Below, piece by piece: positions 2,695-31,927 of a stretch of DNA of 47,828 nt. Origin of the DNA: Deltaproteobacteria bacterium (lineage in GTDB: Bacteria > Desulfobacterota > DSM-4660 > Desulfatiglandales > HGW-15). Where the stretch lies: assembly GCA_016930835.1 (NCBI GenBank), contig JAFGGA010000080.1:1-47828 (forward strand), written 5' to 3'. The translations under genes and the position numbers were made by a program. The notes beneath the pieces are model-generated. The model saw only the letters and a list, made by a program, of their open reading frames with translations, did not search any database and was not told where the DNA came from. The first letter of the stretch is position 1; every line of letters begins with the position of its first letter.

Positions 2695-2736
2695 TGTTCA
2701 TCCAGAAATGAACAATTTCTGGATATAGAGAGATCC

Positions 2737-3972: not shown

Positions 3973-4096
3973 TACCACGGCTCGCTTATGTTGATAAATT
4001 TGTAAGGTATGATTTTTTGATGTTATAAATATATTTGTTTCGCTAAGAGGCGTATGACTCAAGGCGAAAGATTCAAGGCTTTCATTGTATTTTCTG

Positions 4097-4102
4097 TATA
4101 AT
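4097..4102 (+). promoter_or_regulatory. Possible -10 element ahead of the activator genes
   Basis: A perfect TATAAT occurs about 64 bp before the likely start of the first activator gene, inside a ~190 bp gap after the CoA-transferases. No good -35 box sits 16-18 bp upstream, so this is only a candidate second promoter. Confidence 0.3.
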
Positions 4103-4165
4103 GATAGACCTCTAGCCTTGCGCCCAGTGCGCTGCGACCGTCTTTTTCATTTATGGAGGTATAAA

Positions 4166-4942
4166 ATCATTTTAACGGCAGGCATAGACGCTGGAATGGA
4201 TCGGACCAAAGCGGTCATTTCAAAAGGCGATGGGGATCCTGTTTGGGTTATCGTCCCTGGAGGGACGGAGTCAACAGAAAAGGTTGCTCATATGGCGCTC
4301 CAACTGGCCGCTGAAAAAGCCGGTGTCGCCGCAACGGGCATTAGACACATCACCGCAACCGGTGCAGGGAGGGAATATATTTCTTTCGCAGATCAAGAAG
4401 CACCGGAGTTCCAATGTCTCGCCCGAGGAATCCATTCTATCTTACCTTCTACCAGAATCTTACTTGACCTCGGTGCCAGAAAATCGTTGGCCGTAAAATG
4501 CAAAGAGGGGCGGACCTTAAAGGTTGCCTCCAGCAGCAAGTGTGCGTCCGGTACCGGCACGTATATAGAAATGGTGTCGACAATCCTGGGGGTGGATTTT
4601 GTGGAGATGACGGAACTTGCACTTCAGTCTAAAGAAAACCTGACCATACAATCCACTTGCGCTGTTTTTGCGGAATCGGAAATCATTTCTCTGGTCCATG
4701 ATGGTGTAAAAATAGAAGACATCATCTGGGGTGTTTTTAGGGGGATTTCCGGCCGAATATATCCTCACCTGCTTGATTTGGGAATAGAGCAGGACATCAC
4801 CGCAGTTGGAGGCGTGGCCAGAAGCAAAGCCATGATTTTAGCCCTGGAGGAGATAGTCGGTTATAACATAAACGTTCCAGAGCATCCTGAGATAATCGGT
4901 GCTCTGGGAGCGGCGATGATTGGAAGGGATATTCTGTCATGA
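4166..4942 (+). CDS. BcrD/BadG-like ATPase subunit of a (R)-2-hydroxyacyl-CoA dehydratase/benzoyl-CoA reductase activator
   Basis: This is an ASKHA-fold ATPase that, with its partner, couples ATP hydrolysis to electron delivery. It keeps both cluster-ligand cysteines, C126 (KCASGTG) and C165 (STCAVFAES). Its phosphate loops are degenerate compared with the partner: GIDAGMDRTK instead of GIDIGSSTAK, and DLGARKS instead of DMGGQDC. This points to the D-type member of a heterodimer. No ATG or GTG lies at a sensible place. GGAGG at 4155-4159 is followed, 6 and 9 nt later, by ATC (4166) and ATT (4169) in frame with the conserved TAGIDAG, so an ATC/ATT start is proposed. The in-frame ATG at 4085 would add ~27 unconserved residues and bury the ribosome site. 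The gene overlaps the next by ATGA. Confidence 0.8.
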   Translation: MILTAGIDAGMDRTKAVISKGDGDPVWVIVPGGTESTEKVAHMALQLAAEKAGVAATGIRHITATGAGREYISFADQEAPEFQCLARGIHSILPSTRILLDLGARKSLAVKCKEGRTLKVASSSKCASGTGTYIEMVSTILGVDFVEMTELALQSKENLTIQSTCAVFAESEIISLVHDGVKIEDIIWGVFRGISGRIYPHLLDLGIEQDITAVGGVARSKAMILALEEIVGYNINVPEHPEIIGALGAAMIGRDILS

Positions 4943-5718
4943 TCGTAGCCGGTATTGATATAGGTTCTTCAACGGCTAAGGCCGTTATTATTAAAGATCA
5001 TTCCGTTCTTTCAACCGCAATCATTCCCACCGGCAGCAACAGCGCCGATACCGCTATGAAGGTCATGGATAGGGCGTTGACTCCCATGGGTCTATCTTTA
5101 AACGATATGGCATATATTGTATCGACCGGTTATGGACGCATCAAGGTTCCCTTCACGAAAAAAAATATTACGGAAATCTCTTGTCATGCCAGAGGGATTT
5201 CATCTGTATTTCCAACGGTTAGGACGATCTTGGATATGGGAGGGCAAGACTGCAAGGCTATTCAATGTGATGGAAATGGGAAGGTCCAAAATTTTGTCAT
5301 GAATGATAAATGTGCGGCAGGTACAGGGCGGTACCTTGAGCGGATCTCCAAAACCTTGGATGTTGCCATTGAAGATATCGGTGACTTATCACTCCTGACC
5401 AAGGAAGGACCTGCCACAATCAGTAGTTTTTGCGCAGTTTTTGCCCAAGGTGATGTCATCACGCTTTTAAGAAAAGGAACGTATGTGAATGATATCCTGG
5501 CCGGGGTGTGTGAGGCCCTAACAGAAAGGATTCAAAGGTTGATCAAACAAGTTGGAATGACTAAAGATTTTGCTATCAGCGGTGGTATTGCTAAAAATAA
5601 GGGGGTGGTGTCACGACTGGAAAGGAATCTGGAAGTAAAGGCACATATCGCCCCTGAACCCCAGATCATAGGGGCCTTGGGTGCGGCGCTTTTTGCGGAA
5701 GAATTGGCCGGAAAATAG
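4939..5718 (+). CDS. HgdC/BcrA-like ATPase activator subunit (BadF/BadG/BcrA/BcrD family)
   Basis: The 259-residue protein has the complete activator signature: GIDIGSSTAKAV at the N-terminus, DMGGQDCKAI, C125 in KCAAGTGRYLER and C165 in SFCAVFAQGD. These two cysteines per chain bind the bridging [4Fe-4S] cluster in HgdC-type homodimers. A C-terminal IIGALGAALFAEEL closes the ASKHA fold. Its ATG overlaps the stop of the preceding, more degenerate activator gene, so the two are translationally coupled and probably form a heterodimer like BcrA/BcrD. It would act with the dehydratase-like protein at 198-1454. It ends 54 bp before a convergent sensor kinase gene. Confidence 0.87.
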   Translation: MIVAGIDIGSSTAKAVIIKDHSVLSTAIIPTGSNSADTAMKVMDRALTPMGLSLNDMAYIVSTGYGRIKVPFTKKNITEISCHARGISSVFPTVRTILDMGGQDCKAIQCDGNGKVQNFVMNDKCAAGTGRYLERISKTLDVAIEDIGDLSLLTKEGPATISSFCAVFAQGDVITLLRKGTYVNDILAGVCEALTERIQRLIKQVGMTKDFAISGGIAKNKGVVSRLERNLEVKAHIAPEPQIIGALGAALFAEELAGK

Positions 5719-12491: not shown

Positions 12492-13703
12492 ATGGATTTA
12501 AATATCCCTTATCTTAGAGATGAAGATAAAAGTTTGGTCATGCTTATGAAGGAGTTTTGTGAAAGGGAGGTGGATCGGCAGGCCTTAAACGACCTGGCGG
12601 ATACGCCCATTCCCCCTAATGCAACCAAAAAAGATCTAATGGCCCGTATGCCGTGGGATTTAATCAGCAAGGCCCATGATGCGGAATTACGTCAATTGAC
12701 GGTACCTGAAGAATATGGTGGCGGCGGGTTTGGAGAAAACTGGCTGGCTTTGACTGCCCTTGCGGAAGCGGCGGGGTATTACGGCGGCCAGGTTGCTCGC
12801 ATCTTTACCATAGCCTGGAAACACATAGGCTCGTTGATTTATGCTCCAAAAGCAATACAGTATGAGGTTTTTACGGATTTTATGAACGATCGCAGGACCA
12901 TGTGCGCCGCTTCCATTACCGAACCTAACCACGGCAGTGACTACCTGTTGCCTTTTAATGACCCTTCCACCGGTAAATACTTTGCTGAGAAAGATGGCGA
13001 TGAGTGGGTGCTTAACGGTGAAAAGATGTTCTGTACCGCCGGAGGGGTCTCCAATTATATTATCGTCTCCTGCAGGACGGATAAAGATGCCCCAATTACT
13101 AAGGCCGTGACCACATTTGTCGTTCCCACAAAGACACCAGGGTGGTCTATTGCCCGTGTAAACGACATGATGGGAAATGAGATCACCGCCAATGTGCAAA
13201 TGCGGTTTGAGAATGTCAGGGTCCCCGATCGACTGCGAACCAGTCCTGTGAATGGTGGTTTTGAGATCATGAAATCCCGTCTTGCCGGAAAAACCATCCA
13301 CCTCATGGCGGCCCTGGGAGAGACCGAAAAGGTTTTGGAAGATATGATCGACTATTGCAAGGCCAGGATACAGGGCGGGAAACCGATTATCCAACATAGT
13401 AATGTCGGTGTTTTACTGGCTGAGGGGGACGCCCTTTTAAAAGCCGCTAGACTTATGATCTATCAAGATGCCTGGGAGAGCATGGGCAAAGGGGAATTGC
13501 TTGATCCGAAGGGATGGTGGTATGTGAATTGGTTCACCAAGAAAGTCATTCTGCGCATGGTGGAGATCGGTTTTGAAATTTATGGCGGAATGGCTCCCCA
13601 AAAAGAACTGCCGTTCGAACGTTGGGCCCGTATGCATCTGAGTATTTGGCACGGCGGATCAACGGGTACATTGAATATGATCAAGGCCTCGAAGGTTTTA
13701 TAA
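12492..13703 (+). CDS. Acyl-CoA dehydrogenase family protein with atypical catalytic region
   Basis: This is a 403-residue flavoprotein of the acyl-CoA dehydrogenase family, which oxidises acyl-CoA at the alpha/beta position and passes electrons to Etf. Family features are VPEEYGGGG, the FAD/substrate loop CAASITEPNHGSD, WVLNGEKMFCTAGG, and the C-terminal IYGG...LPFERWAR. The region that normally reads IYEGTSEIQ, holding the catalytic Glu of medium-chain-type enzymes, reads IWHGGSTGT here with no acidic residue. The catalytic base may therefore sit elsewhere, as in isovaleryl-CoA dehydrogenase, or the chemistry may differ. It is the first gene after the sigma-54 promoter, and etfB/etfA follow directly, so electron transfer through that Etf is likely. 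Confidence 0.9.
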   Translation: MDLNIPYLRDEDKSLVMLMKEFCEREVDRQALNDLADTPIPPNATKKDLMARMPWDLISKAHDAELRQLTVPEEYGGGGFGENWLALTALAEAAGYYGGQVARIFTIAWKHIGSLIYAPKAIQYEVFTDFMNDRRTMCAASITEPNHGSDYLLPFNDPSTGKYFAEKDGDEWVLNGEKMFCTAGGVSNYIIVSCRTDKDAPITKAVTTFVVPTKTPGWSIARVNDMMGNEITANVQMRFENVRVPDRLRTSPVNGGFEIMKSRLAGKTIHLMAALGETEKVLEDMIDYCKARIQGGKPIIQHSNVGVLLAEGDALLKAARLMIYQDAWESMGKGELLDPKGWWYVNWFTKKVILRMVEIGFEIYGGMAPQKELPFERWARMHLSIWHGGSTGTLNMIKASKVL

Positions 13704-13772
13704 GAGCCCGTAGATCCTGGTTATTCATGGCCTATTGGAACATTTTTATTGTTTTTTCCCCGACCCTCCGCG

Positions 13773-13841
13773 GAATATCGAGCAAGGAATGCCCCATCTT
13801 AAAGTGACGTATATTTTTCTACTGCTCCTTGTTCGATATTC
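13773..13841 (+). other. Long stem-loop between acyl-CoA dehydrogenase and etfB
   Basis: Arms 13773-13788 and 13826-13841 form a 16-bp stem with one G-U pair and a 37-nt loop, ending ~10 nt before the etfB ribosome site. There is no U-tract after it, so it is more likely an mRNA processing or stability element, or a protein site, than a terminator. The arm core GAATATCGA resembles the CGAAATATCGA sites, lacking one A. Confidence 0.55.
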
Positions 13842-13862
13842 AAAAATATTTCAGGAGTAATC

Positions 13863-14663
13863 ATGAACATTATCGTTTGCATGAAAGAGGTTAGAGACCC
13901 GGATGCCTCTTCTGACGTTTTTAAAATAGATATGAACAACAACACCCTGGTGAGCGCGGATAATGTCCTGAAGGTGGTCAATCCCTTTGATGAACAGGCC
14001 GTTGAAGCTGCCTTGCGAATCAAAGATAAAACCGGTGCGAAGGTCATTGTTCTAAACCTAGGTCATCAATTGGATTTGGTGGTCGCCCGGAAACCTTTAC
14101 TTATGGGGGCGGATGAATTTATATTGCTTGATGATGAGGGTTTCGTCGGCGGAGATAGCTGGTCAACCGCGCATGCTCTGGCAATGGCCATCAAAAAGAT
14201 CGGATCTTATGATTTGATCCTATGCGGTCGGCAAGCCGCTGATTCCAATGCCGGTCAGGTTGGTTTGGGCATCGCTCAAATACTGGGTATCCCCTGTGTG
14301 ACCATCGCGCGAAAAATTGAGGTTGAAGAAGGGAAGGCGACGGTTGAAAAAGTCACGCAAGATGGATATGAAATTATTGAAATGGCGTTACCCGCTCTTG
14401 TCACCGTGAGTAGTGAACTCGGACAACCCCGTTATCCATCCATCAAACGACTTCGCGCAGCAAATTCAATACAACCGCTTATCTGGAAACCGGCGGATAT
14501 CGGTCTGGAACCATCAGATACGGGGAAGGCCGGTCGACGAGCAAAGATCCTACGACTGTATCAACCGGTACGCGAAGTGGAGTGTGAATTCATTGAAGGC
14601 GAAACGATCCAGGAAGCAGCTGAAAACCTGGCTTTGAGACTACGGAGTCAAAAAATTATCTAA
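13863..14663 (+). CDS. etfB: Electron transfer flavoprotein beta subunit
   Basis: The 266-residue protein starts MNIIVCMKEVRDPD and has NPFDEQAVEAALRIKD and CGRQAADSNAGQVGLGIAQILG, the hallmark nucleotide-binding region of EtfB/FixA. With EtfA it accepts electrons from the dehydrogenase encoded just upstream and hands them to a membrane or cytoplasmic acceptor not present here. CAGGAG lies 6 nt before the ATG. It is separated from the dehydrogenase by a long stem-loop and from etfA by only 11 bp. Confidence 0.93.
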   Translation: MNIIVCMKEVRDPDASSDVFKIDMNNNTLVSADNVLKVVNPFDEQAVEAALRIKDKTGAKVIVLNLGHQLDLVVARKPLLMGADEFILLDDEGFVGGDSWSTAHALAMAIKKIGSYDLILCGRQAADSNAGQVGLGIAQILGIPCVTIARKIEVEEGKATVEKVTQDGYEIIEMALPALVTVSSELGQPRYPSIKRLRAANSIQPLIWKPADIGLEPSDTGKAGRRAKILRLYQPVREVECEFIEGETIQEAAENLALRLRSQKII

Positions 14664-14674
14664 AGGACGGTATA

Positions 14675-15676
14675 ATGGATATCTATAGGGGTATTGTCAT
14701 TTTTGGGGAGACCGCTGATGGAAAATTGGCCTCCATAACCAGGGAAATGCTCGGAGCGGGCAGAAGATTGGCGGATAACTTCGGAGAAGAGGTGCATGTC
14801 ATCCTGGTGGGCAGGGGTATTCAATCGGCAGTGGATGAAACATTCACCTATGGTGCTGACAAAGTCCATCTTCTGGATAACCCTAAAGTAAAGGAATATC
14901 AACCGGATTTGTTTGTGCAGTGTGCAATACAGGTATGTGAAAAAGCTAAACCGAAGGCGTTTCTTTTAGGGCATACGGATATGGGACAAGATCTCGGTCC
15001 GCGAATCGCTTTTCGCCTGAATACGGCATTGGTCACCGATTGTATTGATTTAACCATTGATCTTGATACAAAGAGGTGTATAATGGCCAAACAAGTTTAC
15101 GGTGGAAAAGCGCAGGCTGATTTTGATTGCGAAACCTATCCCCAGATGGCGACGATCCGTCCAAAAACCATGTCTCCTTTGGAGAAAGATGAGACACGGA
15201 AAGGAGAAATAATCCCCATCACGATTGATATCGATGACTCGATAATCAAGACTCGGCTCATTGATAAAGTAAACGAGGAATCACACGGTATCAAATTGGA
15301 GGATGCGGATATTATCATCTCAGGCGGTAGGGGAATAGGTGGGCCGGAAGGGTTTCAGCAACTGGAGGATCTTGCCGGATTATTTAAAAATGCTGCAGTA
15401 GGTGCATCCAGACCGGCTTGCGATGAAGAGTGGGTGTCAACCAAGATTCAGGTCGGGATCACAGGGAAAATTGTCGCTCCCCGGGTATATATCGCCGTGG
15501 GAATTTCAGGGGCCAGTCAGCACGTCACAGGGTGCTCTGGATCGGAAACTATTATTGCTATTAATAAAGATAAGACTGCGCCCATTTTTAAGGTCTCGAA
15601 GTTCGGTTTGGTAGCCGATTGGGAAACGGCTCTTCCAGCTTTTGCGAACAAGGTCAAAGAATTAATTAATGATTGA
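14675..15676 (+). CDS. etfA: Electron transfer flavoprotein alpha subunit
   Basis: The 333-residue EtfA/FixB protein has an N-terminal Rossmann-like half. The conserved C-terminal FAD domain follows: SGGRGIGGPEGFQQLEDLA, VGASRPACDEEW, QVGITGKIVAPRVYIAVGISGASQH, INKDKTAPIF and DWETALPAF. AAAGGA precedes the ATG. No ferredoxin-like N-terminal insertion is present. It pairs with the etfB just upstream to serve the acyl-CoA dehydrogenase at 12492-13703. Confidence 0.93.
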   Translation: MDIYRGIVIFGETADGKLASITREMLGAGRRLADNFGEEVHVILVGRGIQSAVDETFTYGADKVHLLDNPKVKEYQPDLFVQCAIQVCEKAKPKAFLLGHTDMGQDLGPRIAFRLNTALVTDCIDLTIDLDTKRCIMAKQVYGGKAQADFDCETYPQMATIRPKTMSPLEKDETRKGEIIPITIDIDDSIIKTRLIDKVNEESHGIKLEDADIIISGGRGIGGPEGFQQLEDLAGLFKNAAVGASRPACDEEWVSTKIQVGITGKIVAPRVYIAVGISGASQHVTGCSGSETIIAINKDKTAPIFKVSKFGLVADWETALPAFANKVKELIND

Positions 15677-15819
15677 TCAACGGTGCTTAGGGTTTTTCAA
15701 TCAGACCAAATCCTAATGCCTGACACAACGGATACGTGGTATAATCATTTTAGCGTAAATGAAGAGACGGAGGATGCTTCAATAATCAAGGACCTTTAAA
15801 AGAAAAGGAGGAGGGGATC

Positions 15820-17349
15820 ATGAAAAAATCGAAAAAGATCTTTATTTTCACATTGGTTTTATTGGGCGTTTCATCTTTTCTGCTTTGGGCGTATCCGCTT
15901 AGCGCGGAATCAGCACCGAAATCCGGTGGAACCTTTAAATTGATCCGATACACGGGGGCCGGGCGCAGCATTGGTTGGGGGCCAAGCATAGCAAGAACCG
16001 ACCGGACGGATGCCGAATGTGCTTTAGAATCGTTTTTGCGTCTTTATTTGGATCTGCGCATGGAACCTATGCTGGCAACGAGCTGGAAGATTGCACAGGA
16101 TCGAAGTTCCGTTACCTTTAATCTCCGAAAAGGGGTAAAATTTCATGACGGAACGGACTGGAATGCAGAGGCTGCCAAATTTAATCTTGAGGCATGCAAG
16201 GAGGCAAAGATTCCGGGATCAAACCGCTGGACCGCAATAAAAGTTATCGATAATTATTCGATTCAAGTCGACCTGAATGAATGGCAGAACACGGTCCTGG
16301 AGGATATCGGAACCGTATTAATGGTTTCTCCAACCGCCTATAAAACCATGGGCAAGGACAAAATGAATTGGCATCCCGTAGGAACAGGCCCCTTCAAATT
16401 CGTCAGTGTTGATCGTGATGTCTCCACCATCTATGAGCGCTTTGAGGATTATTGGCAAAAAGGTAAACCTTATGTGGATCGGGTCGAGCTGCTCGTGATC
16501 ACGGACCCGGTCACACAAGCCGCCGCCATGGAAGCGGGAGAAGGCGATGCGTTATACAGTCCGAACCTTAAAGTCGGCGCTGACCTGAAAGCCAAAGGAT
16601 TTGAGAGCATTTATCGGCATGATGGATCTTTTAATCTCATGCCCGATAGTGCCAATCCGGATTCTCCTTATGCCGACAAGAGGGTCCGCGAGGCCTTGGA
16701 ATATGCCCTTGATCGACCGGCGATCATGAAGGCATTAGGGCAGGGATTTTGGCAACCCGCGTACCAATTCCCATGTGATTACAATAAAGGTTACATCTCC
16801 GATTTTAAGGGCCGTGAATATAATCCGGCCAAGGCCAAATCATTACTCAAAGAAGCCGGTTACGCCAATGGATTTAAGACCACGATCATGATCTTCCCCG
16901 GGACATCGCGTGAAATCATGGCTGCCGTACAAGGCTATTACGCGCAGGTCGGGATCCAGGCCGAATTGGAGTTCCCGGATATGGGTAAGTACGGACAAGC
17001 CAGACGAGGCGGATGGAAGAACGGCCTGATGGCCGCCCCTTGGAGTATTTATGCAAACCTTGGCCGGACCTTGACGACTTATGCGGCCACCTCCAGCGGA
17101 GATTATGTCAATATGAAGAGGCCGGCGGGGATTGATAAATTAGTAGATGAAATAATCGGTACGATTGAGATAGATCAGAGCAAGATCGAGCAGGCGGTGA
17201 GATTATGGTCGGAGGAAGCCACGGCCATTCCATTGTGGTACATCGGGGCTCCTCGTTCATTAAGACCGGGCGTGGTACATGACACCGGATTCCTCGATTT
17301 TGCAAGCAACTACGATTGGGCGCCGGAAAGTGTCTGGCTAAGCAAGTGA
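15820..17349 (+). CDS. Extracellular solute-binding protein, family 5 (DppA/OppA type)
   Basis: The 509-residue protein has a signal peptide (KKSKKIFIFTLVLLGVSSFLLWAYPLSA, cleavage near residue 29) without a lipobox Cys at the junction. Family 5 features are RKGVKFHDGTDWNAEAAKFNLE, HPVGTGPFKFV, YADKRVREALEYALDR and AKSLLKEAGY. Members bind peptides but also nickel, glutathione, sugars and other organics, so the ligand is open. AAGGAGGAGG precedes the ATG. Two cognate permease genes follow, after a strong stem-loop. It is the first of three such binding proteins in the window. Confidence 0.92.
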   Translation: MKKSKKIFIFTLVLLGVSSFLLWAYPLSAESAPKSGGTFKLIRYTGAGRSIGWGPSIARTDRTDAECALESFLRLYLDLRMEPMLATSWKIAQDRSSVTFNLRKGVKFHDGTDWNAEAAKFNLEACKEAKIPGSNRWTAIKVIDNYSIQVDLNEWQNTVLEDIGTVLMVSPTAYKTMGKDKMNWHPVGTGPFKFVSVDRDVSTIYERFEDYWQKGKPYVDRVELLVITDPVTQAAAMEAGEGDALYSPNLKVGADLKAKGFESIYRHDGSFNLMPDSANPDSPYADKRVREALEYALDRPAIMKALGQGFWQPAYQFPCDYNKGYISDFKGREYNPAKAKSLLKEAGYANGFKTTIMIFPGTSREIMAAVQGYYAQVGIQAELEFPDMGKYGQARRGGWKNGLMAAPWSIYANLGRTLTTYAATSSGDYVNMKRPAGIDKLVDEIIGTIEIDQSKIEQAVRLWSEEATAIPLWYIGAPRSLRPGVVHDTGFLDFASNYDWAPESVWLSK

Positions 17350-17372
17350 TATCGTTTCAATGAATACCTTTG

Positions 17373-17407
17373 CGGGCACGATTTCAAAACAATCGGGATC
17401 GTGCCCG
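17373..17407 (+). other. Stem-loop between binding protein and permease genes
   Basis: Arms CGGGCACGAT (17373-17382) and ATCGTGCCCG (17398-17407) form a perfect 10-bp stem, followed shortly by ATTTTT. It lies 24 nt after the binding-protein stop. This is the usual place for an element that stabilises binding-protein mRNA or partly terminates before the permeases. Confidence 0.65.
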
Positions 17408-17433
17408 TGGATTTTTGAAGCAACAAGGCAAAT

Positions 17434-18390
17434 ATGACAGCATATATCATACGTCGATTCGTGCAATCCTTGTTTGTTTTTCTATTTGTCAGCATGACCG
17501 TGTTTTTTGCGATGCGCTTGTTACCGGGCGATCCTATCCTGGTGATCATGACCCCCGAAGAGGTTGGAAGGGTATCGGATGAACGGCTTGACGAAATCAG
17601 ACACGAGTATGGATTGGATCGACCGATGATGGTCCAGTATATTGATTGGCTTGTCCATGTCTTTCGCGGCGATCTTGGCAATTCATTGATTTATAATACG
17701 AGTGTGACGGATGAGATCAAAAAAAGGCTCCCTATAACACTTTATATCGGTCTACTGGCCATGATCTTCAGCGGTATCCTCGGTACGATTCTGGGTGTGG
17801 TCAGTGCGGTCAAACGTGGGCGATGGCTGGATTCATTGGTCACGATCACGGCTAATTTGGGTATCACTGTACCGTCCTTCTGGTTGGGGATCCTGCTGGT
17901 TTTTGTTTTTTCCATTTCCCTGAAAATCCTTCCGGTGCAAGGTTATACATCCCCCTTTAGTGATTTGATGATGAGTACCAAGCAATTGATCATGCCAGTC
18001 TTTTGTTTGGCCGTGTTTCCCCTTGCGACGGTCGCCCGTCAGACGCGATCAAGCATGCTTGAAGTAATGGGTCAGGACTATATACGAACCGCCTGGGCAA
18101 AAGGTTTAAAAGAGCGGATCGTCATATCGAGACATGCACTGAAGAATGCGTTTATCCCCGTTATGACCATGACGGGTATCGTGTTTCGCAATGTCCTGGG
18201 GGGCGCCGTGATTATTGAAACCGTATTTAATATTCCTGGTCTGGGAAGATTGGCTGTGTCAGGTATTATTACGCATGATTATGCATTTGTGCAGGGTGTT
18301 ATTCTTGTGATGGTCACAGCCGTATTATTCATCAACCTGATCATTGATCTCACTTACGGATGGTTGGATCCTAGGGTACGCTATGATTAA
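17434..18390 (+). CDS. ABC transporter permease, DppB/OppB type
   Basis: The 318-residue inner-membrane protein has six predicted TM segments. It shows the DppB N-terminus (YIIRRFVQSLFVFLFVSMTVFFAMRLLPGDP), the EAA-loop region around DYIRTAWAKGLKERIVISRHALKNAFIPV, and the C-terminal LTYGWLDPRVRYD. It forms the translocation pore with the next gene product. No ATP-binding subunit gene is found nearby, which is unusual for this transporter class. It has a paralogue at 42675-43631. Confidence 0.93.
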   Translation: MTAYIIRRFVQSLFVFLFVSMTVFFAMRLLPGDPILVIMTPEEVGRVSDERLDEIRHEYGLDRPMMVQYIDWLVHVFRGDLGNSLIYNTSVTDEIKKRLPITLYIGLLAMIFSGILGTILGVVSAVKRGRWLDSLVTITANLGITVPSFWLGILLVFVFSISLKILPVQGYTSPFSDLMMSTKQLIMPVFCLAVFPLATVARQTRSSMLEVMGQDYIRTAWAKGLKERIVISRHALKNAFIPVMTMTGIVFRNVLGGAVIIETVFNIPGLGRLAVSGIITHDYAFVQGVILVMVTAVLFINLIIDLTYGWLDPRVRYD

Positions 18391-18423
18391 GGAACAGGCT
18401 CTTTAATCGGCCGGGATAAATGT

Positions 18424-19305
18424 ATGAAGAAAGGGACTCAAAATAAACAGCCACCTCGTTCCACTGAGTTCAAACGTTTTTGTCGTGTTTTTTTTGGTAG
18501 AGGTCTGGTTGTATTCGGAATGGTCATCATTTTGGCGCTTATTATAACAGCTATTTTTGCACCCTGGGTAGCCCCTTATGATCCTTATGCCTTGGATATG
18601 AGCAAAACACTGCTTCAACCCTGTAAAGACCATCTGCTGGGGACGGACGCTCTAGGAAGGGATCTATTCAGCCGAATGATTTACGGTAGTCGCATCGCTC
18701 TTCTGGTGGGCGTATTCGCGGTCGGAGCAGCTGCTATCATTGGTATGACCATAGGCCTGATTGCCGGGTATTCGGGAGGCTGGATCAGTATGATTTTTAT
18801 GAGAATAACCGACGGTCTGCTGGCTTTTCCCATGGTTCTTCTGGCGCTTCTTATCGCCGGTATTCTTGGCGGCGGCCTGAAAAATGTGATCGTTGCGTTG
18901 ACAATCGGACTTACACCCTCCTATGCCAGGCTGATGTATGGCCAGACCCTATCGGTGAGAGAAAACGATTTTGTATTGGCGGGACGTTCGATGGGAGCGA
19001 CCAATATCCGCATCATGTTACGACATATTTTTCCGAATTGTTTACCTCCTTTAATCGTACAGATCACCATGATGATCGGGATGGCGATCCTGGCCGAGGC
19101 TTCATTAAGTTTTTTGGGTGTCGGGATCAAGCCTCCGATGGCTGCCTGGGGGACGATTGTTTATGAGGGTTATCAATACTTAAGAACTCATCCCTTCCTT
19201 TCTCTTATACCCGGTTTTGCGGTCATGGTTGTTGTATTCAGTTTCAACATGGTGGGAGACGGCTTAAGGGATGCCCTTGACCCAAGATTACGAGGAGTCT
19301 TGTAG
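18424..19305 (+). CDS. ABC transporter permease, DppC/OppC type
   Basis: The 293-residue second permease has the DppC hallmark APYDPYALDMSKTLLQPCKDHLLGTDALGRDLFSR split across the first periplasmic loop. The EAA loop is RSMGATNIRIMLRHIFPNCLPPL, and the end is NMVGDGLRDALDPRLRG. It follows dppB-like after 33 bp. Its paralogue at 41767-42663 is closely similar, including the short LQPCKxHxLGTDALGRD stretch. This suggests the two cassettes arose by duplication. Confidence 0.93.
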   Translation: MKKGTQNKQPPRSTEFKRFCRVFFGRGLVVFGMVIILALIITAIFAPWVAPYDPYALDMSKTLLQPCKDHLLGTDALGRDLFSRMIYGSRIALLVGVFAVGAAAIIGMTIGLIAGYSGGWISMIFMRITDGLLAFPMVLLALLIAGILGGGLKNVIVALTIGLTPSYARLMYGQTLSVRENDFVLAGRSMGATNIRIMLRHIFPNCLPPLIVQITMMIGMAILAEASLSFLGVGIKPPMAAWGTIVYEGYQYLRTHPFLSLIPGFAVMVVVFSFNMVGDGLRDALDPRLRGVL

Positions 19306-19354
19306 CTCTTCAATCTTTCATTTTTAAGCGACATAACCTTTAAAAGGAGAACCA

Positions 19355-20107
19355 ATGCCCTTAACCAAAAATGATTATGACATTTTTAAACAATTTCATT
19401 TTACTCGGTCTCCCGTATGCGTGAAATATACTTACAAACGACCTGAGCATCTTCAAAGGTTGGGTGAGAACACAACCTTATGTATCATGTTAAAAAAAGC
19501 TCAAGAAGGAAATGCCTTTTATATCGATAAAAACAATATCACTTGTGGTGGTGCCGTGGTAGGGATGGGGGAACATCTGCCAGTCTCCTTGAGCGGAGAG
19601 TTCGCGACGGCCATCGAGGTCTATGAAGAACCTCGATCCGCAAGTCGTTTGTATCCCCAACTTCCTGAAATCAGCAACGGATTAATCAATTATGTTTCTT
19701 TTGCACCGCTCAATAAGTTTTCCTTCGACCCGGATGTCTTGATTATCTTCACCGATAATACACGTCAAACACAAATATTGCTTAGAGCCGCCAGCTATCG
19801 AACGGCAAAGATTTGGACGAGTAAATTTACGTGCATAATGGGATGTGCCTGGATCTATGCCTATCCCTATTTGAGCGGGGAAATCAATTATGGGTTAACG
19901 GGTTTGAGTCATGGGATGGGCCGCCGTAATCTGTTCCCGGATGGATTACAATTCATCTCCATACCGTATCTCATGATGCCTTCAGTCCTGCAAGCCCTAC
20001 AGGATATGCAATGGGAACTTCCCGCTTTTAAACCGGATGGCGAGGCTTTTTTCGTTAAAACGAGGAAAAGATTGTCAGAGGAGTTGCCCAAACATGTTGT
20101 GACTTAG
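19355..20107 (+). CDS. DUF169 (COG2043) family protein
   Basis: The 250-residue protein has the DUF169 pattern: an N-terminal PVCVKYTY segment, CIMLKKAQEGNAFYIDKNNITCGGAVVGMGE, and a late hydrophobic SIPYLMMPSVLQALQDMQW. Two conserved cysteines (TLCIML and ITCGGA) suggest metal or thiol chemistry, but the family has no established function. DUF169 genes are often found beside anaerobic acyl-CoA pathways. Here it sits between the permeases and the MutL/GRE genes and is preceded by AAAAGGAG. No signal peptide is apparent, so it is probably cytoplasmic. Confidence 0.8.
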   Translation: MPLTKNDYDIFKQFHFTRSPVCVKYTYKRPEHLQRLGENTTLCIMLKKAQEGNAFYIDKNNITCGGAVVGMGEHLPVSLSGEFATAIEVYEEPRSASRLYPQLPEISNGLINYVSFAPLNKFSFDPDVLIIFTDNTRQTQILLRAASYRTAKIWTSKFTCIMGCAWIYAYPYLSGEINYGLTGLSHGMGRRNLFPDGLQFISIPYLMMPSVLQALQDMQWELPAFKPDGEAFFVKTRKRLSEELPKHVVT

Positions 20108-20304
20108 CGTATACCCGTTACTCTTCCTTATCCGGCTGGGAAGGAATTAGGGAGACGAATGTTGTCCTAGTAAACATTTTGACGGTCCATACTGCCCCCC
20201 GACCACTTATCAGTTAAGGATTAAACTGCGACCTGCGTCCAAAAATCAGGGAAAAAGCCGAAAGCTGATTTTCATCACTTACTCATTTCGAAAGGATTTT
20301 TAAT
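20108..20304 (+). other. 197-bp leader before the MutL-like gene
   Basis: It contains two modest hairpins: arms TTCCTT/AAGGAA (20124-20146) and AAAATCAG/CTGATTTT (20242-20272). The second ends ~33 nt before the TTG start and could influence translation. No riboswitch class was recognised. Confidence 0.3.
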
Positions 20305-21705
20305 TTGTCCCGGATCGGTCTTTTTACGGATTTTGGTAGTACATACACCAAAGTAGTAGCAATCGATTTAGACAATGAAGTCCTCGTAGGGCAAAGCCAG
20401 TCCAACAGCACGGTAGATCGAAATATTGAGATTGGCTTTCAGTCCGCTCTAAAGAGGCTTCGATCTCAAAATTCAGAACTTCTCGATTGCGAATTTCATG
20501 TCAAACTGAGCAGCAGCAGCGCCGCAGGAGGTTTGGGATTAGTTGTCATCGGATTGGTTCCCGGTCTTACAATGAAAGCGGCCCAGATGGCGGCTCTGGG
20601 CGCGGGGGCCAAAGTGAAAGGGGCATTTTGTTACAAGCTAAATCACGATGAAATTCTGAAGATGGAAACATTATGCCCTGATATTGTCTTGTTGGCAGGA
20701 GGAACCAACGGCGGCAATGAGGATGTTATCCTCCATAATGCTAGAATGCTGGCTGATTCAGACATTCAAGCACCGATCGTGGTGGCGGGCAACAAGGCTT
20801 GTGTGGATACCATAAAGAACATACTTGAACCAACCAAGCCAGGTGTGACGATTGTTGATAATGTTCTGGGAGATCTGGATAGATTGAATGTTGAACCGAG
20901 TCGTGAGGCCATTCGACAGATTTTCATGAATCGGATCATCCATGCAAAAGGTCTTGATAAGGCCATCACATTGGTGGATCAGGTCTTAATGCCGACCCCG
21001 ATGGCCGTACTTAAGGCAGCAGAAATCATGTCTTTGGGAAGTGGCCCTGAAAGCGGCTTGGGGGAGCTTATCCTTATTGATATTGGTGGGGCAACGACCG
21101 ATGTCCATTCCATCGCCCATGGACATCCCAGTGATCCAAACGTAATGGAAAAAGGCCTGCCGGAACCCTTTTCAAAAAGGACCGTTGAAGGGGATTTGGG
21201 CTTACGATATAATGCCGTATCGATCCTAGAGGCCGTGGGAATAGATCGGCTTTGCAGATATGGATTGCTGACCAGTTCACCCACGGCTCTGGAGGCAAAA
21301 ATCAAGCACTTGTCTGAAGACATCCGCGATCTTCCAAAGACGGATGAGGATTTTGAAATAGACATCGCCTTGGCTCGATCGGCCCTGGAGATGGCCGTGG
21401 AAAGGCATTCCGGGCAGTTGGAGCAGATTTTTACATCCACAGGGATGGTTCGGATTCAAAGAGGAAAGGACTTGACTCATATAAAGACAATCATTGGTAC
21501 TGGAGGTATTTTCGCGTTCGGAAAAAATCCACTCAAGATTTTAGAGGGCGCTTTATTTAGTGACAATAATCCTTTGATTCTTAAGCCGAAAAATCCAAAG
21601 TTTCTAATAGATAAAAAGTATATCCTTTTCGCGATCGGCCTTTTGGCTGATACGGAACCGGAGAAAGCGGTACGTATCGGGAAAAAGTATCTTGTTTCTA
21701 TTTAG
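20305..21705 (+). CDS. MutL/GlmL-family ASKHA ATPase (glutamate mutase accessory-protein family)
   Basis: The 466-residue protein has LFTDFGSTYTKVVAID, SSSSAAGGLGLVVIGLVPGLTMKAAQMAALGAGAKVKG (not quoted continuously in any database search here), LLAGGTNGGNED, VVAGNK, LMPTPMAVLKAAE and IDIGGATTDVHSIAHG. These are the distinctive motifs of the MutL family encoded with B12-dependent aminomutases, where it is thought to act as an ATP-dependent chaperone or reactivator. No B12 mutase subunits are encoded here; the next gene, 34 bp on, encodes a glycyl radical enzyme. The start is TTG at 20305, with AAAGGA 8 nt upstream. A maintenance role for the neighbouring radical enzyme is inference. Confidence 0.85.
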   Translation: MSRIGLFTDFGSTYTKVVAIDLDNEVLVGQSQSNSTVDRNIEIGFQSALKRLRSQNSELLDCEFHVKLSSSSAAGGLGLVVIGLVPGLTMKAAQMAALGAGAKVKGAFCYKLNHDEILKMETLCPDIVLLAGGTNGGNEDVILHNARMLADSDIQAPIVVAGNKACVDTIKNILEPTKPGVTIVDNVLGDLDRLNVEPSREAIRQIFMNRIIHAKGLDKAITLVDQVLMPTPMAVLKAAEIMSLGSGPESGLGELILIDIGGATTDVHSIAHGHPSDPNVMEKGLPEPFSKRTVEGDLGLRYNAVSILEAVGIDRLCRYGLLTSSPTALEAKIKHLSEDIRDLPKTDEDFEIDIALARSALEMAVERHSGQLEQIFTSTGMVRIQRGKDLTHIKTIIGTGGIFAFGKNPLKILEGALFSDNNPLILKPKNPKFLIDKKYILFAIGLLADTEPEKAVRIGKKYLVSI

Positions 21706-21738
21706 ATTAAAGATATTCATCTTTCTTAGGAGGTTAAA

Positions 21739-24144
21739 ATGAACGAAAGAACACAACGTTTAAAAGAGCGACTTCACGTGGATCGATATCCCATATGCGT
21801 GGAGAGGATAGGGTACATTACGGAATCACTCAAACAAACGGATCAAGAGCCGCAGATCCTGAGGATGGCAAAATCCCTCGCCCATTACCTGGATCACAAG
21901 ACTATCTTTATTGAAGATGACGAACTGATTGTGGGCAATGTCGCCAGTAAGCCCATGGGTATGGAAGCCGGTGCCCCCACCTGGCCACCTGAGGATCTTA
22001 AAGAGCTCAAGGAGGGAAAGGAACGGTTCTTTCTGACCGATGAAGATGAGGCGCTTTTGCGGACCATGGATGATTACTGGAAAGGTAAGGGTCGGCTGAT
22101 CCCGGAGAGGCAAGGCCAATTATACGACGATGAAAGGATGTGGCCCTTTATACAATCAGGTATCCTTTGCCCACCTTGGAAGGAAAAAGGTGTCGGTCGA
22201 GGTTTCGGCCGGGCCGGAGGCGGATGGGCTGGTTTCGGGGGCCGGGGCTTGGATGTCTTAGACTTTGGTAAGGTCCTTAATGTGGGATTCAATGCGATCA
22301 TTAGAGAAGCGGAGGAGGAGTTAACTAACTTACGTTACACCAGCCTAGAGGCTATTAAAAAGGCCCATTTTCTTCAAGCCGTGATCATAGCAGATCGCGC
22401 AGTGGTTCGAATTGCCGACCGATTCGGTGATTTGGCCTCGGATATGGCATCCAAGGAAAAAGATCCCGCACGCAAGAAAGAACTTGAGCGAATCGCAGAG
22501 GCCTGCCATAGGGTCCCGGGTGAACAGGCAAGAACTTTTTATGAGGCTATGCAGTCATTCTGGTTTACCTGGGTCTTGTTTGGGGGTGGAACAACGGCCG
22601 GTGGTAGGTTTGATCAGTTTATGTATCCGTTTTACAAGAATGATAAGGAAGCGGGTCTGATTACCGATGAAGAGGTCCTTGAATTGCTCATATGCCTGCG
22701 GATAAAAGTCATGCAGGTAAACGGTGTTGCAGGCGGAAAGCTCCAGCGGGAGAAGTGGTCGGGAATGGCACGATGGAACAACTGGGTAATCGGAGGGGTC
22801 ACACCCGAAGGAAAGGATGCAACCAATGAATTGACCTACCTTATCTTGGATGCCGCTAAAGAGTGTCAAACACCTCATCACACCATTACTTTACGGGTTC
22901 ATGACAAGACACCAGAAGACTTGATGCTCAAGGCCATAGATGTGGTCAAGACCGGAATAGGCATGCCCGCCTTTGTGGGTGACAAGTCATTCATCAATTA
23001 CTTTACCAATCAAGGAGTCCCTATTGAAGACGCCCGTGAATACGCCTTGGGTGGATGTCTGGAAGCCAATATACCTGGAAAATCGGGTGCCACCATGGCC
23101 TTCGGGATGTTCATAGCACCCAGGGTATTTGAAATCAGCTTGAATGACGGGTTCGATCCCCGGACAGGTAAACAATTGGGTCCTTTTACGGGCAAATTTG
23201 AAGATTTCAAGAGTTTCGATGAACTCGTGGATGCCTTTAAAAAACAGCTTCATTATTTTATGAGCATGACCGTTGAGGAACACAATATCCTTTTGCAGGT
23301 TATGGCCGATTTGACGCCGTCGCCGGTTTGGTCATCGTTGATGCATGATGCCATCAAAGCGGGCAAGGATGTTTATGAACGGACATTGCCTTTTGAAAAT
23401 GCGGCATGTCTTAATGTGGTCGGCATGATCAATGTAGCTGATTCCATGGCTGCCATCAAAAAATTGATCTTTGATGAAAAAAAGATCACCCAGGAAGAAT
23501 TGAAGCAGGCCCTAGTGGCGAATTGGCAGGGGGATCGAAACCAGGAAATCCGCAGGATGTGCCTCGCTGCACCCAAGTACGGAAATGGAGATGAATACGT
23601 CGACACCATAGCAAGGGATCTTTATCAATATTGGGCGGATACGACCGGATCTTTTTATTCCATCTTGGGTGGAACTTTCAAGCCTACCGGTATCTCCATC
23701 ACCGCTCATGGTCCGGGTGGTGCCATGACCGGGGCGACCCCTGATGGACGTTACGCCGGTGAAAACCTGGCTGACGGAACCATGTCGGCAGCCCAGGGTA
23801 AAGACACCCGCGGTCCTACGGCCCTGATCCGCAGCGCCATGTCCATTGATCAAGAACCTTACCAATCAACGTTGTTGAACATGAAGTTTCACCCTTCAGC
23901 CTTGGAGACCACGGATGATATGAGGAAACTATCCTATTTGATCAAGACCTATTTTAATCAAGGTGGAAAACACGTTCAATTCAACGTTACGACCAGGGAG
24001 ATCCTGGAGGACGCCCAAAAGCGACCTGAGAGACATCGTGATCTCATTGTCCGGGTCGCCGGATACAGTGCCTATTATGTGCAACTTACAACCGCCATCC
24101 AGGATGATATCATGGCAAGGATGGAATATGACAGGGCAGCCTGA
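21739..24144 (+). CDS. Glycyl radical enzyme of the GCxE (dehydratase/decarboxylase-like) class
   Basis: The 801-residue PFL-like protein carries the glycyl radical motif RVAGYSAYYVQL with Gly775. Its thiyl cysteine is C440 in GGCLEAN, with E442 two residues on. The Cys-x-Glu arrangement is that of diol/choline/hydroxyproline-type enzymes and arylacetate decarboxylases. It differs from pyruvate formate-lyase (Cys-Cys) and from benzylsuccinate synthase-type active sites. AGGAGG precedes the ATG. Neither a radical-SAM activase nor a small decarboxylase subunit is encoded in the window, so activation must come from elsewhere. Co-occurrence with CoA-pathway and uptake genes suggests it acts on an imported organic acid or alcohol. 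The exact substrate is not inferable. Confidence 0.93.
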   Translation: MNERTQRLKERLHVDRYPICVERIGYITESLKQTDQEPQILRMAKSLAHYLDHKTIFIEDDELIVGNVASKPMGMEAGAPTWPPEDLKELKEGKERFFLTDEDEALLRTMDDYWKGKGRLIPERQGQLYDDERMWPFIQSGILCPPWKEKGVGRGFGRAGGGWAGFGGRGLDVLDFGKVLNVGFNAIIREAEEELTNLRYTSLEAIKKAHFLQAVIIADRAVVRIADRFGDLASDMASKEKDPARKKELERIAEACHRVPGEQARTFYEAMQSFWFTWVLFGGGTTAGGRFDQFMYPFYKNDKEAGLITDEEVLELLICLRIKVMQVNGVAGGKLQREKWSGMARWNNWVIGGVTPEGKDATNELTYLILDAAKECQTPHHTITLRVHDKTPEDLMLKAIDVVKTGIGMPAFVGDKSFINYFTNQGVPIEDAREYALGGCLEANIPGKSGATMAFGMFIAPRVFEISLNDGFDPRTGKQLGPFTGKFEDFKSFDELVDAFKKQLHYFMSMTVEEHNILLQVMADLTPSPVWSSLMHDAIKAGKDVYERTLPFENAACLNVVGMINVADSMAAIKKLIFDEKKITQEELKQALVANWQGDRNQEIRRMCLAAPKYGNGDEYVDTIARDLYQYWADTTGSFYSILGGTFKPTGISITAHGPGGAMTGATPDGRYAGENLADGTMSAAQGKDTRGPTALIRSAMSIDQEPYQSTLLNMKFHPSALETTDDMRKLSYLIKTYFNQGGKHVQFNVTTREILEDAQKRPERHRDLIVRVAGYSAYYVQLTTAIQDDIMARMEYDRAA

Positions 24145-28363: not shown

Positions 28364-28786
28364 ATGAGAGAGATTAATCGAGCAAGTATCATCAATATAA
28401 CCTTTTTTATTTTGATACTATTTAGCGCGTCTGTGATTTTTGGACAAGACACCCAGCTTCCCCATATTTCTGTCGATGAACTAAAGGCCTTAATGGACAA
28501 TAACACAGAGATTGTCATCTTGGATACACAGCCTAAAAAGCTTTATGACCGGGGACATATCAAAGGGGCAATCTCCTTTCCGTTTAAAATGAGATTGGAC
28601 GGGACAGAGGTCCTTGAATTGCCGAGGGATAAATTGATCGTCCTTTATTGCGATTGTGGACCCGGCGAAGCAGACAGTAATCACCTAGGCCTTCAGCTCA
28701 GAGAATTGGGGTTTTTGGATGTCAAGGTTTTGGCGGCCCCCTCGATCCGTGGTTGGAAGGAAAAAAATTTCCCCATGGGAGAATGA
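28364..28786 (+). CDS. Exported rhodanese-domain protein
   Basis: The 140-residue protein has an N-terminal hydrophobic signal (INITFFILILFSASVIFG) and a single rhodanese domain: ISVDELKALMDNN, VILDTQPKKLYDRGHIKGAISFP, then the active loop VLYCDCGPGEADS with Cys96 as candidate sulfur carrier and an extra Cys98. Rhodaneses carry persulfide sulfur or act in thiol redox. Export places this one in the periplasm. It is followed after 34 bp by a cytochrome/DUF1573 gene and then by a UGSC gene, which suggests joint thiol/selenol/sulfur chemistry. The UGA after its last Glu is a true stop, since nothing domain-like follows in frame. Confidence 0.85.
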   Translation: MREINRASIINITFFILILFSASVIFGQDTQLPHISVDELKALMDNNTEIVILDTQPKKLYDRGHIKGAISFPFKMRLDGTEVLELPRDKLIVLYCDCGPGEADSNHLGLQLRELGFLDVKVLAAPSIRGWKEKNFPMGE

Positions 28787-28820: not shown

Positions 28821-30032
28821 ATGCATACCATTGCAAGGCTACGTATCGTGATATTTAAACCAACACTTTTTATCTTGCTGGGTCTTGTGTATTCCATTGC
28901 ATCTTTCCAACATGATGCTTTTGCCGAAATCTATGGACGGTTCATTGGATGGAAGGCATGTCAAGAATGTCACACGGAGATCAGCAATGGATGGGCCAGG
29001 ACAAGACATGCAAGCGCCTTTGAGAGTCTTGTAGAGTCAGGCCAGCAGGATCTACCGGATTGTCTGAGATGTCATGTGGTAGCATATGATCGACCTGGAG
29101 GATTTTTGGATCCGGATCTAACCATGGAACTTGCGGGTGTACAATGCGAGTCATGCCATGGCCCGGGGAAAAAACATCTATATCAGACTGAAGGGTCTGC
29201 GAGCATTATCCGGGAACCTACCGTTGAACGATGCCGAACCTGCCATACCACCGGGCAGGACCCCGATTTCGATTACACCAAAAAGGCGGCGTCGATTCAC
29301 GGGGAATTGTCCGTGCCTTCATCCACGTCATCCTTTTCTCCTAAGACATCCTCTTCATCCTCAAGGCTTTTTGTAGATCAAACTCTCTTTGAACTTCCTA
29401 GTGTTGATGAAGGAGTGCCGGTCATCGTCAATGTATTTCTGAAAAATATCGGATCAAGCGATATCCGCGTCACGGATTTGGTCACTTCTTGAGCCTGCAC
29501 GGAAGGAGTGCTTGGAAAGCGGCTCTTAAAATCCCAGGAAAACACGTTTTTGCGGATCGTATATCACACCAAGGATCGTCCAGGTCCATATGAAAAAAGA
29601 ATCTACCTGAGCACCGATATCCCCGATCAAGACGATGTCGTTATCACGATTAAAGGGATGGTCCATGAAGCGCCCATTGCCAAGATACGGGTCGAGCCAA
29701 AAAAATTTAAGGTGGAGCTGGTCAAAACAGGGCGTGTGATGAATCTTAACATCCTCATCAGCAATGAAGGTAGCGAACCACTCACCATCACGAGGATTCA
29801 AAACGAAAAGGGAACGAATACTTATTTTGAAGCCGGTAAACAGGGAGGTCTGGTCATAGGAGCAATGGGGTCAACAGGTTTTAATCTGGCCTTTCTCGCG
29901 AATCAAGCTAGCCCTTTCGTGCAAGTCATTTTTATCGAATCCAATGCACGAAATGTGTTAAATGGGCGTTATCCGATCATGATCATTGGTGAATCGGCGC
30001 CAAATGAAGTCTCCAACGAAAAAAAATTATAG
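28821..30032 (+). CDS. Exported tetrahaem cytochrome c-DUF1573 fusion with predicted selenocysteine (UGA at 29490-29492)
   Basis: Read through the in-frame TGA, this is a 403-residue protein. It has a signal peptide (ending near AFA-E36) and four haem motifs (C47QECH, C81LRCH, C109ESCH, C138RTCH). A Ser-rich linker (~167-181) leads to a DUF1573 Ig-like domain and then a second Ig-like domain lacking Cys. DUF1573 domains normally contain SCGCT; here the position reads S-UGA-A-C-T, so Sec224 would replace the first Cys. The DUF1573 fold continues in the same frame after the UGA (VYHTKDRPGPYEKRIYLSTD). A candidate SECIS hairpin follows. No start codon with a ribosome site begins the second half; the nearest is a GTG at 29508. 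Likely role: periplasmic electron transfer coupled to a selenol/thiol site (inference). Confidence 0.85.
29490..29525 (+). other. Recoded UGA and candidate bacterial SECIS (cytochrome-DUF1573 gene)
   Basis: After UGA (29490-29492), GAG (29506-29508) pairs with CTC (29523-29525). T29509 is unpaired opposite GG, and GCTT (29510-29513) pairs with AAGC (29517-29520), capped by loop GGA. A bulged U beneath a 4-bp stem with a G-rich loop ~20 nt after UGA resembles the E. coli fdhF SECIS. An alternative fold pairs GCAC (29497-29500) with GTGC (29508-29511). Confidence 0.55.
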
Positions 30033-30100: not shown

Positions 30101-31927
30101 ATGAAGAACCAATTGAAGCGTAGTCTGTTTGTCACATTATTCATGGTCATGAGTTTATGGGTAATTGAGGTGTCAATCGCCCAGGTCACTTTGGAGGTGC
30201 TCAACCCCCGGGTTGAAATCGAACCACCTAAAACCATGGGAATTTCTCCACGCGTAACGAATTTGGCCGGTAAGACCATCGGCCTGTACGACAATGGCAA
30301 AACCGGGTTTACCGAATTCCTTGATGTGACTGAAAAGTTGCTAAAGGAGAAGTATCCGACGGTCACCATCAAGCGATACAGGGGAGGCTTTGATCTTGGA
30401 GCCCGCACCGCTGAGACCATGGCCAAAGAAGTGGACACCTTTATCTACGGCTCGGGAGACTGAGGTTCCTGCACCTGGCAAGGTACTGCCGGGATAGCAA
30501 GACTTGAAAAATTAGGCATTCCTGGAGTGTTTTTGGTTGCGGAAAATTTCGAACACGATGCCGAATCCGGTGCCCACGATAATGGAATGCCCGGTCAACG
30601 ACATGTTGTTTTGAAAGGATACTATTGGTATATTCCTCCCGCGGAATCCAAACCCATCGCGGAATCCCACATTGATAAAATTATTACGACATTAACCACA
30701 CCCCTGACCACGGAAGAGATCAATCCCCCACAGGCTCCAAAGGTGGTTTTCCCGCCAGTCAAGATTACGGCAGAGACCTACGCGGCGGCAGTTGAAAAAT
30801 TTCAAAAGCTTTTTAACGATAATCGTTGGAGTGACGGTCTAGCTATCATTCCACCCACAAGGGAGGCTGTTGATCTCATGCTAACTGGGACGAACCGTTC
30901 GCCTGATGAAGTCATCGGAACGGTCAAGGCCAAAAATGGGATTGCCACTGTTGAAAAAATCGCTATCAATGCGGTTATGGCCGGCGCAAGTCCCTCATAT
31001 TTGCCTGTCATTATTGCGGCCATGGAAGGCCTGAGCGATCCATCGTTTGATCTTCTACATCCCCAAGCGTCCTTAGGAGGTTTTGAATTGGCGATCTGGG
31101 TGAGCGGTCCCATGGCCAAGGAATTGAATATGAATTACAGGGATCGCCTTTGGACTTATGGAAATCGTGCCAACAGCAGTATCGGTCGCGCCATTGTTTT
31201 ATGCCGCATCAACCTGGGACAGATGTGGCCGGCTATCAATGATATGGCGAGGACACGAACGGTTCCCTTTACGAACTATATTTTTGCTGAAAACAACACA
31301 TCTCCCAATCCTTGGAAGCCCTATCACGTGATTCAAGGATTTGACGCGGAAGACAGTTGCGTATCGGTATCTACTGTCTGGCCGAGAACGGAAACCACTT
31401 ATTCCGGGGCAACGGCAAAGGATCTGTTAGATAAAGTTATCGAGGATATCCGTTCCAGCCGGTCGTCGGTATTTTTAAGGTATAAGCCCCTGGTGGCCAA
31501 TCCATCAGCCCATCCCCGTAAATATGTATTGATGGTATCGCCTGAGGCGGCCGAGGAACTGGCAGGTCTAGGATACACTCAGGAAGACCTGCGAAATTTC
31601 GTTTACGAGGCCACGCGTGTTCCTTATGAACAACTCAGCCCGGATGAAATAAACGGTATTCAGTCTCGGATAGACGTAAGCCTTTCGGGAAAGGGGATCT
31701 TTTCGGATCGGCTTCCTCCTGACCGGATACCGGTATGGCAGCAAGGTCTTAAACCCGGCGGAAAAGTACCGGTGCTTGTAACCCCTGAGGATCTTCATTT
31801 TGTTGTGGTCGGTGCGCAGGGAAAGTCCATCAGCGGATGGTATTATATCAGAGCCCCCTACACGTGGTCCTCCCATAACACCAAGAAGATTAAAGGGGCG
31901 ACACTTACCAAGGCTGGGCGAATTTAG
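30101..31927 (+). CDS. Exported UGSC-family selenoprotein (UGA at 30461-30463)
   Basis: Read through the in-frame TGA, this is a 608-residue protein with a signal peptide (MKNQLKRSLFVTLFMVMSLW..., cleavage near SIAQ). Residues ~45-190 form a UGSC domain: RVTNLAGKTIGLYDNGKTGFTEFLDV, IYGSGD then Sec121-Gly-Ser-Cys124-Thr, then LEKLGIPGVFLVAENF and the C-terminal part of the fold. Sec/Cys in UGSC would form a selenenylsulfide redox pair, as in the reductase selenoproteins. A ~400-residue C-terminal region (AINAVMAGASPSYLPVIIAAMEGL and onward) has no function I can name. I recall similar sequences accompanying UGSC proteins. AGGAGGAAAAA precedes the ATG. The second half has no credible own start. 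Confidence 0.9.
30461..30493 (+). other. Recoded UGA and candidate bacterial SECIS (UGSC gene)
   Basis: CCTGGCA (30474-30480) pairs with TGCCGGG (30487-30493), a 7-bp stem with one G-U, capped by loop AGGTAC (30481-30486). Counting from the U of UGA, G and U fall at positions 23 and 24. These are the positions of the SelB-contacted G23/U24 in the E. coli fdhF SECIS loop. Confidence 0.7.

Follow-up and report, generated by a model that had tools for sequence, protein, structure and literature searches.

The window, by which we mean the whole stretch of 47,828 nucleotides that was analysed, carries on its forward strand a gene at 28821-30032 that runs from an ATG to a TAG and whose frame is open except for one TGA, at 29490-29492, which is codon 224. 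This TGA stands where the S-C-x-C-T motif of a DUF1573 domain has its first Cys, and the motif would accordingly be written T-S-U-A-C-T. The original prediction had described two same-frame ORFs parted by a single TGA on that Cys, with the DUF1573 fold resuming in frame past it, and both descriptions held: frame and alignment agree on the position of the TGA, and the Pfam match to DUF1573 (PF07610; residues 185-281) spans it with 54.3 bits against a cut-off of 26.1. The features of this gene and of its two neighbours are as follows.

28364..28786, plus strand: exported rhodanese-like protein, 140 amino acids, Cys form with the motif YCDCGPGE; opens the cassette
28821..30032, plus strand: predicted tetrahaem cytochrome-DUF1573 fusion selenoprotein, Sec at 224; 403 amino acids, single internal TGA
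28821..28925, plus strand: N-terminal signal peptide for periplasmic export, residues about 1-35 (...HDAFA-E); a hydrophobic stretch, read from the sequence
28923..29279, plus strand: tetrahaem cytochrome c554-type module, residues 35-153 (Cytochrome_C554, C-terminal part of NF041198, CxxCH motifs)
29373..29663, plus strand: DUF1573 Ig-like domain with the S-U-A-C-T site, residues 185-281 (PF07610, AlphaFold2)
29490..29492, plus strand: in-frame TGA, predicted selenocysteine codon 224, in a TGA/Cys column shared by relatives
29504..29527, plus strand: candidate SECIS hairpin, AGGAGUGCUUGGAAAGCGGCUCUU, with GG in the apical loop and a bulged G on the 3' side
29685..29999, plus strand: second Ig-like (ASH/choice-of-anchor-D-like) domain, residues 289-393, pLDDT above 90
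30101..31927, plus strand: exported UGSC-family protein, predicted selenoprotein, 608 amino acids, Sec at 121 (TGA 30461-30463, motif GSGD-U-GSCT)

The four CxxCH motifs of the cytochrome module stand at residues 47, 81, 109 and 138 (nucleotides 28959, 29061, 29145 and 29232), and Pfam recognised Cytochrome_C554 (PF13435) at residues 46-114 with 64.4 bits against a cut-off of 20.8. In the AlphaFold2 model, a helix is predicted at residues 2-29, in the signal peptide region, and a Ser-rich linker of about 25 residues between the cytochrome and the Ig domains is of low confidence; the cytochrome part is of low confidence too, and hence the haem-to-Sec distance is not readable from the model. By contrast with that part, residues 183-393 form two confident Ig-like domains with pLDDT mostly above 90; the second of these was matched by NF012200 at 26 bits, below the cut-off of that model. 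Residue 224 lies on the loop that joins strands 215-222 and 227-230, with pLDDT of about 90 on either side, and the predicted Ig fold passes unbroken through it. A structure search with the fused protein returned generic ASH/HYDIN-type and other Ig folds only, and gave no clue to an enzyme.

Relatives, decoding machinery and the downstream hairpin

Alignment to the domain placed a TGA in the identical column in 39 distinct DUF1573 genes, that of the window included, and in 26 other DUF1573 genes the same column is a Cys in an S-C-x-C motif; because most of the TGA loci were fetched as TGA-bearing, the numbers of U and C genes are no census, and it is the fixed position that serves as evidence. 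A DUF1573 family search of the genome to which the window belongs (4.7 Mb, 224 contigs) gave six matches, and a single internal TGA is present in four of the six. A search of 395 genomes of the phylum with a profile of the group gave 35 matches with one TGA among the matches listed, and no TAA or TAG was found inside the DUF1573 matches listed for these genomes. In the whole window, ORFs split by a TGA with at least 90 amino acids on each side number only two, and they are adjoining genes (TGA at 29490 and at 30461). Since the only two such ORFs are adjacent, and since the column is conserved in 39 genes, the break in 28821-30032 is not a matter of chance.

The genome also encodes the machinery for selenocysteine, namely selA (616 bits), selB (404 bits), selD (374.5 bits, itself containing a TGA, in a G-S-G-U motif) and tRNA-Sec (selC, anticodon TCA). 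The original prediction had proposed as checks that homologues should cross the UGA with Cys or U and that Sec machinery should be present in the genome; both proved to be so, and the column shared by relatives together with selA, selB, selC and selD argues for the Sec that it had placed at position 224. We also observed a branch of Sec-DUF1573 proteins with P-C-U-G-V or a similar motif (L101, L104, L110, L111, L117, L120, L122, L124 and L126), which mostly have C-U and lack a second Cys two residues on, a different active-site layout; the genes of this branch carry GC-rich, very regular hairpins 3' of the TGA.

The candidate SECIS hairpin at 29504-29527 corresponds to nucleotides 15-38 counted from the U of the UGA, and the window copy can fold as AGGAGUGCUU-GGA-AAGCG(G)CUCUU, in which the G in parentheses is bulged. 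What had been expected here was an fdhF-like hairpin with a bulged U; the stem-loop with a GG-containing apical loop is present, whereas no clear bulged U was found and a G bulges from the 3' strand instead. The stability of the hairpin was determined for nucleotides 12-45 from the U of the UGA in comparison to synonymous-codon shuffles. The window copy did not fold clearly better than its controls (z -0.38 and -0.85). For the family, the mean z was -1.47 in the 39 TGA genes versus -0.72 in the 26 Cys genes, with a Mann-Whitney p of 0.003 that is rough on account of the small codon pool and the related sequences; the Cys genes show some structure in the SECIS region too. In seven sequences, those of the window and six close relatives, the helix formed by nucleotides 18-23 with 29-34 kept 95% of its pairs, in comparison to 19-52% in slid controls, and compensatory changes were seen at two of its pairs. 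An Rfam search over the hairpin region yielded nothing relevant, and minimum-energy folding of single 45-nt stretches was not informative. Together, these comparisons support a SECIS hairpin at the level of the family and make one plausible for the window copy.

The fusion and its neighbouring genes

In most close relatives the cytochrome and the DUF1573 protein are encoded by adjoining genes, both of which specify a signal peptide, a form that was found on two contigs of the same genome (C129 and C137), in G130 and G396, in an Acidobacteria MAG (L090) and in NaphS2, where SCACT stands in place of the SUACT of the window. In the window, the stop codon and signal peptide between the cytochrome and DUF1573 are replaced by the Ser-rich linker. 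A second fused copy was found in a Zodletone MAG (L089, JAFGSM010000211.1); it is 384 amino acids long, has a TGA at the same site, is 61% identical over the chain and lies behind a rhodanese gene 78% identical to that of the window, the contig ending after the fused gene. A third fused copy (G077) is on a contig that ends before the Sec column. The existence of these two further copies indicates that the fusion is conserved as a gene and did not arise by misassembly. One further candidate for a full-length fusion, G053, was rejected, as a TAG divides it into two genes. A scan of contigs with the whole fused protein found nothing, and an alignment-based scan did recover homologues. In the close S-[U/C]-A-C-T group, each of the eight full-length proteins inspected adjoins or is fused to the same type of tetrahaem cytochrome; the fusion thus hints at a partner for Sec-DUF1573, one that relatives keep as a neighbour.

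The gene in front of the fusion, 28364-28786, matched Pfam Rhodanese with 49 bits and the rhodanese-related (seleno)protein model NF041203 with 53 bits, which is below its cut-off; where that selenoprotein model has LYCAU at the site, the Cys relative in the window has LYCDC. A rhodanese homologue upstream of the cytochrome gene also occurs in C129, L089 and G396. On the other side, 30101-31927 matched UGSC (PF24696) with 95.5 bits against a cut-off of 25, its TGA at 30461 being followed by GSC. This predicted selenoprotein lies directly downstream of the fusion gene and was absent from the original prediction. Its C-terminal domain of about 400 amino acids, with the motif WSDGL..PPT, is without a Pfam match; the model of the protein is of low confidence (mean pLDDT 52), and a fold search with it gave no convincing match. 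A standard gene caller breaks both 28821-30032 and 30101-31927 at the UGA, by which two predicted selenoproteins are hidden.

The same genome holds 12 UGSC-family matches, 10 of them with one TGA (9 of 11 when 30101-31927 is set aside), on contigs C119, C221, C132, C167, C198, C223, C207, C129 (two), C142, C68 and C57. The UGSC selenoprotein family is thus strikingly expanded in this genome, and the relatives G004, G008 and G016 also have several members.

Genes in the order rhodanese, cytochrome, DUF1573(U), UGSC(U) recur on contig C129 of the same genome and in G396, which belongs to another family of the phylum. The three cassette proteins of the window begin with hydrophobic export signals, as read from the sequence, and the spacing of 34 to 69 bases suggests that their genes are probably transcribed as one RNA. 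UGSC genes are also found elsewhere without these cassette neighbours, and an association with rhodanese and UGSC is not in itself proof of a shared pathway. Near the cytochrome-DUF1573 pairs of L055 (C137), L092 (G130), L090 and L095 (NaphS2) we further observed a conserved membrane protein that reaches about 390 amino acids, which we take to resemble the YeiH/UPF0324 transporter family, and near several of these pairs a small exported helix-hairpin-helix protein. Two other parts of the window, 198-5718 and 12492-24144, encode benzoyl-CoA reductase/dehydratase-like subunits, activases, CoA transferases, acyl-CoA dehydrogenase, ETF and a PFL-like glycyl radical enzyme; this is an anaerobic degradation region.

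Reading of the UGA, possible function and known systems

Judging from the sequence comparisons, the UGA at 29490 is very probably decoded as selenocysteine by the genome's own SelA, SelB, SelC and SelD, helped by the downstream stem-loop. Were this UGA a real stop, the product would be a short tetrahaem cytochrome ending in a functionless tail, and DUF1573 would belong to a separate or decayed gene, i.e., a pseudogene or the product of a sequencing error; such a reading would accommodate the weak hairpin of the window taken alone, a GTG at 29508 that is formally able to start the downstream ORF, and the separate cytochrome and DUF1573 genes of relatives. The separate-gene relatives that were inspected, however, are split before the Ig domain, with a signal peptide of its own for DUF1573, and none is split inside it, whereas a stop at 29490 would cut the Ig domain of the AlphaFold2 model in mid-fold. 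As the TGA is also kept in the 61% identical fused gene of an independent genome, and in the same column of 38 other genes, a real stop is highly improbable. The frame that stays open past the TGA would suit a reading other than selenocysteine, e.g., Trp by a changed genetic code, or non-specific read-through, but TGA is the terminal stop of 9 of the 32 main ORFs of the window, where it is thus a normal stop and a changed genetic code is ruled out; in addition, the TGA-free relatives hold Cys, the counterpart of Sec, in the column, and the genome has a full Sec system. We regard such a reading as scarcely credible.

With selenocysteine at codon 224, the product would be one exported 403-residue chain made up of a signal peptide, a tetrahaem module, a flexible Ser-rich linker and two Ig-like domains. 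In the periplasm, the Sec-224/Cys-226 pair would alternate between a selenol/thiol and a selenenylsulfide state, electrons would reach or leave this pair through the tetrahaem module that is covalently joined to it, and a single chain would do the work of two adjacent genes in relatives. Passage of electrons between the haems and the Sec-Cys couple is suggested by the tetrahaem module in the same chain and by its constancy as a neighbour in close relatives, and we propose the haem-wired mechanism tentatively, as one possible account. About as likely is an independent thiol or binding role of the Ig domain, in which the fusion would only co-deliver two exported modules and the Sec-x-Cys would be a thiol/disulfide or a metal/selenium-binding site not wired to the haems; this alternative concerns the mechanism only and leaves the reading of the UGA as it is. 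It would agree with the long, low-confidence Ser-rich linker that parts the modules and with the closest folds, the ASH/HYDIN-type Ig domains, which are mostly binding domains, while the presence of the same tetrahaem type beside or within all eight inspected full-length members of the S-[U/C]-A-C-T group indicates a shared electron traffic and speaks against it.

Under the haem-wired mechanism, the fusion protein and its two exported neighbours, the rhodanese and the UGSC selenoprotein, would together make up a cassette for sulfur or thiol redox reactions in the periplasm, and sulfur or persulfide chemistry is suggested by the rhodanese. That the periplasmic cassette of rhodanese, tetrahaem cytochrome, Sec-DUF1573 and Sec-UGSC, put together more than once, wires selenol chemistry directly to a multihaem electron network, with two of the redox partners fused in this lineage, is a more doubtful proposal; if true, it would constitute a new electron-driven selenoenzyme system of anaerobic bacteria with a sulfur or thiol substrate. 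A haem-linked redox role of Sec-DUF1573 is now testable with one purified protein.

The original prediction had assumed that no Sec-containing DUF1573 protein was known. This was mistaken, as the Sec-containing DUF1573 family OS_HP2, with the motif UxC, is described (PMC2398784), DUF1573 selenoproteins with a UGC motif are reported (PMC9312934, PMC13188914) and an NCBI model, NF041425, exists; passages of PMC9312934 and PMC13188914 credit Sec-DUF1573 to Zhang and Gladyshev 2007. No function for the family was found in the literature searched. The prediction had also presented the c-type tetrahaem/DUF1573/Sec fusion as unknown, and here the exact fusion was indeed not found described, although Sec with multihaem cytochromes is known. 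No description of a DUF1573-cytochrome or c554-selenoprotein link was found in a search outside which subscription papers mostly lay, and the tetrahaem-DUF1573(Sec) fusion and its cassette appear undescribed.

OS_HP2 proteins have the same Ig-like domain as the window protein, Sec taking the place of the first motif Cys and a Cys following two residues on; they usually have U-G-C, in contrast to U-A-C in the window protein, where a tetrahaem cytochrome precedes the domain in the same chain. The OS_HP2_seleno model of NCBIfam (NF041425) scored 46.5 bits on the window protein against a cut-off of 100, so that the U-A-C branch would be missed and the protein would be left unnamed by the NCBI rule. 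The UshA-like selenoprotein model NF041198 (PCGU) matched the window tetrahaem module with its last approximately 120 positions (399-519) at 131.5 bits; the match is confined to these C-terminal positions and lies below the cut-off of 275. The Sec of NF041198 is in the UshA-like part (PCGU) and that of the window protein in the DUF1573 Ig domain, and since the end of NF041198 matches the tetrahaem module, the pairing of a Sec site with this type of cytochrome in a single chain has a precedent. ExtKL (NF040886) is a known case of Sec coupled to multihaem cytochromes. Cytochrome c554 (PDB 1bvb) has a four-haem c-type module like that of the window (profile positions 31-151); it is a relative by haem motif and profile only, lacks Sec and has another genomic setting. 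With the UGSC family (PF24696, NF041046), 30101-31927 has the exact U-G-S-C motif in common and differs from it in being extended by the C-terminal domain of about 400 amino acids; a fusion of UGSC with an unknown domain has already been mentioned (PMC2398784).
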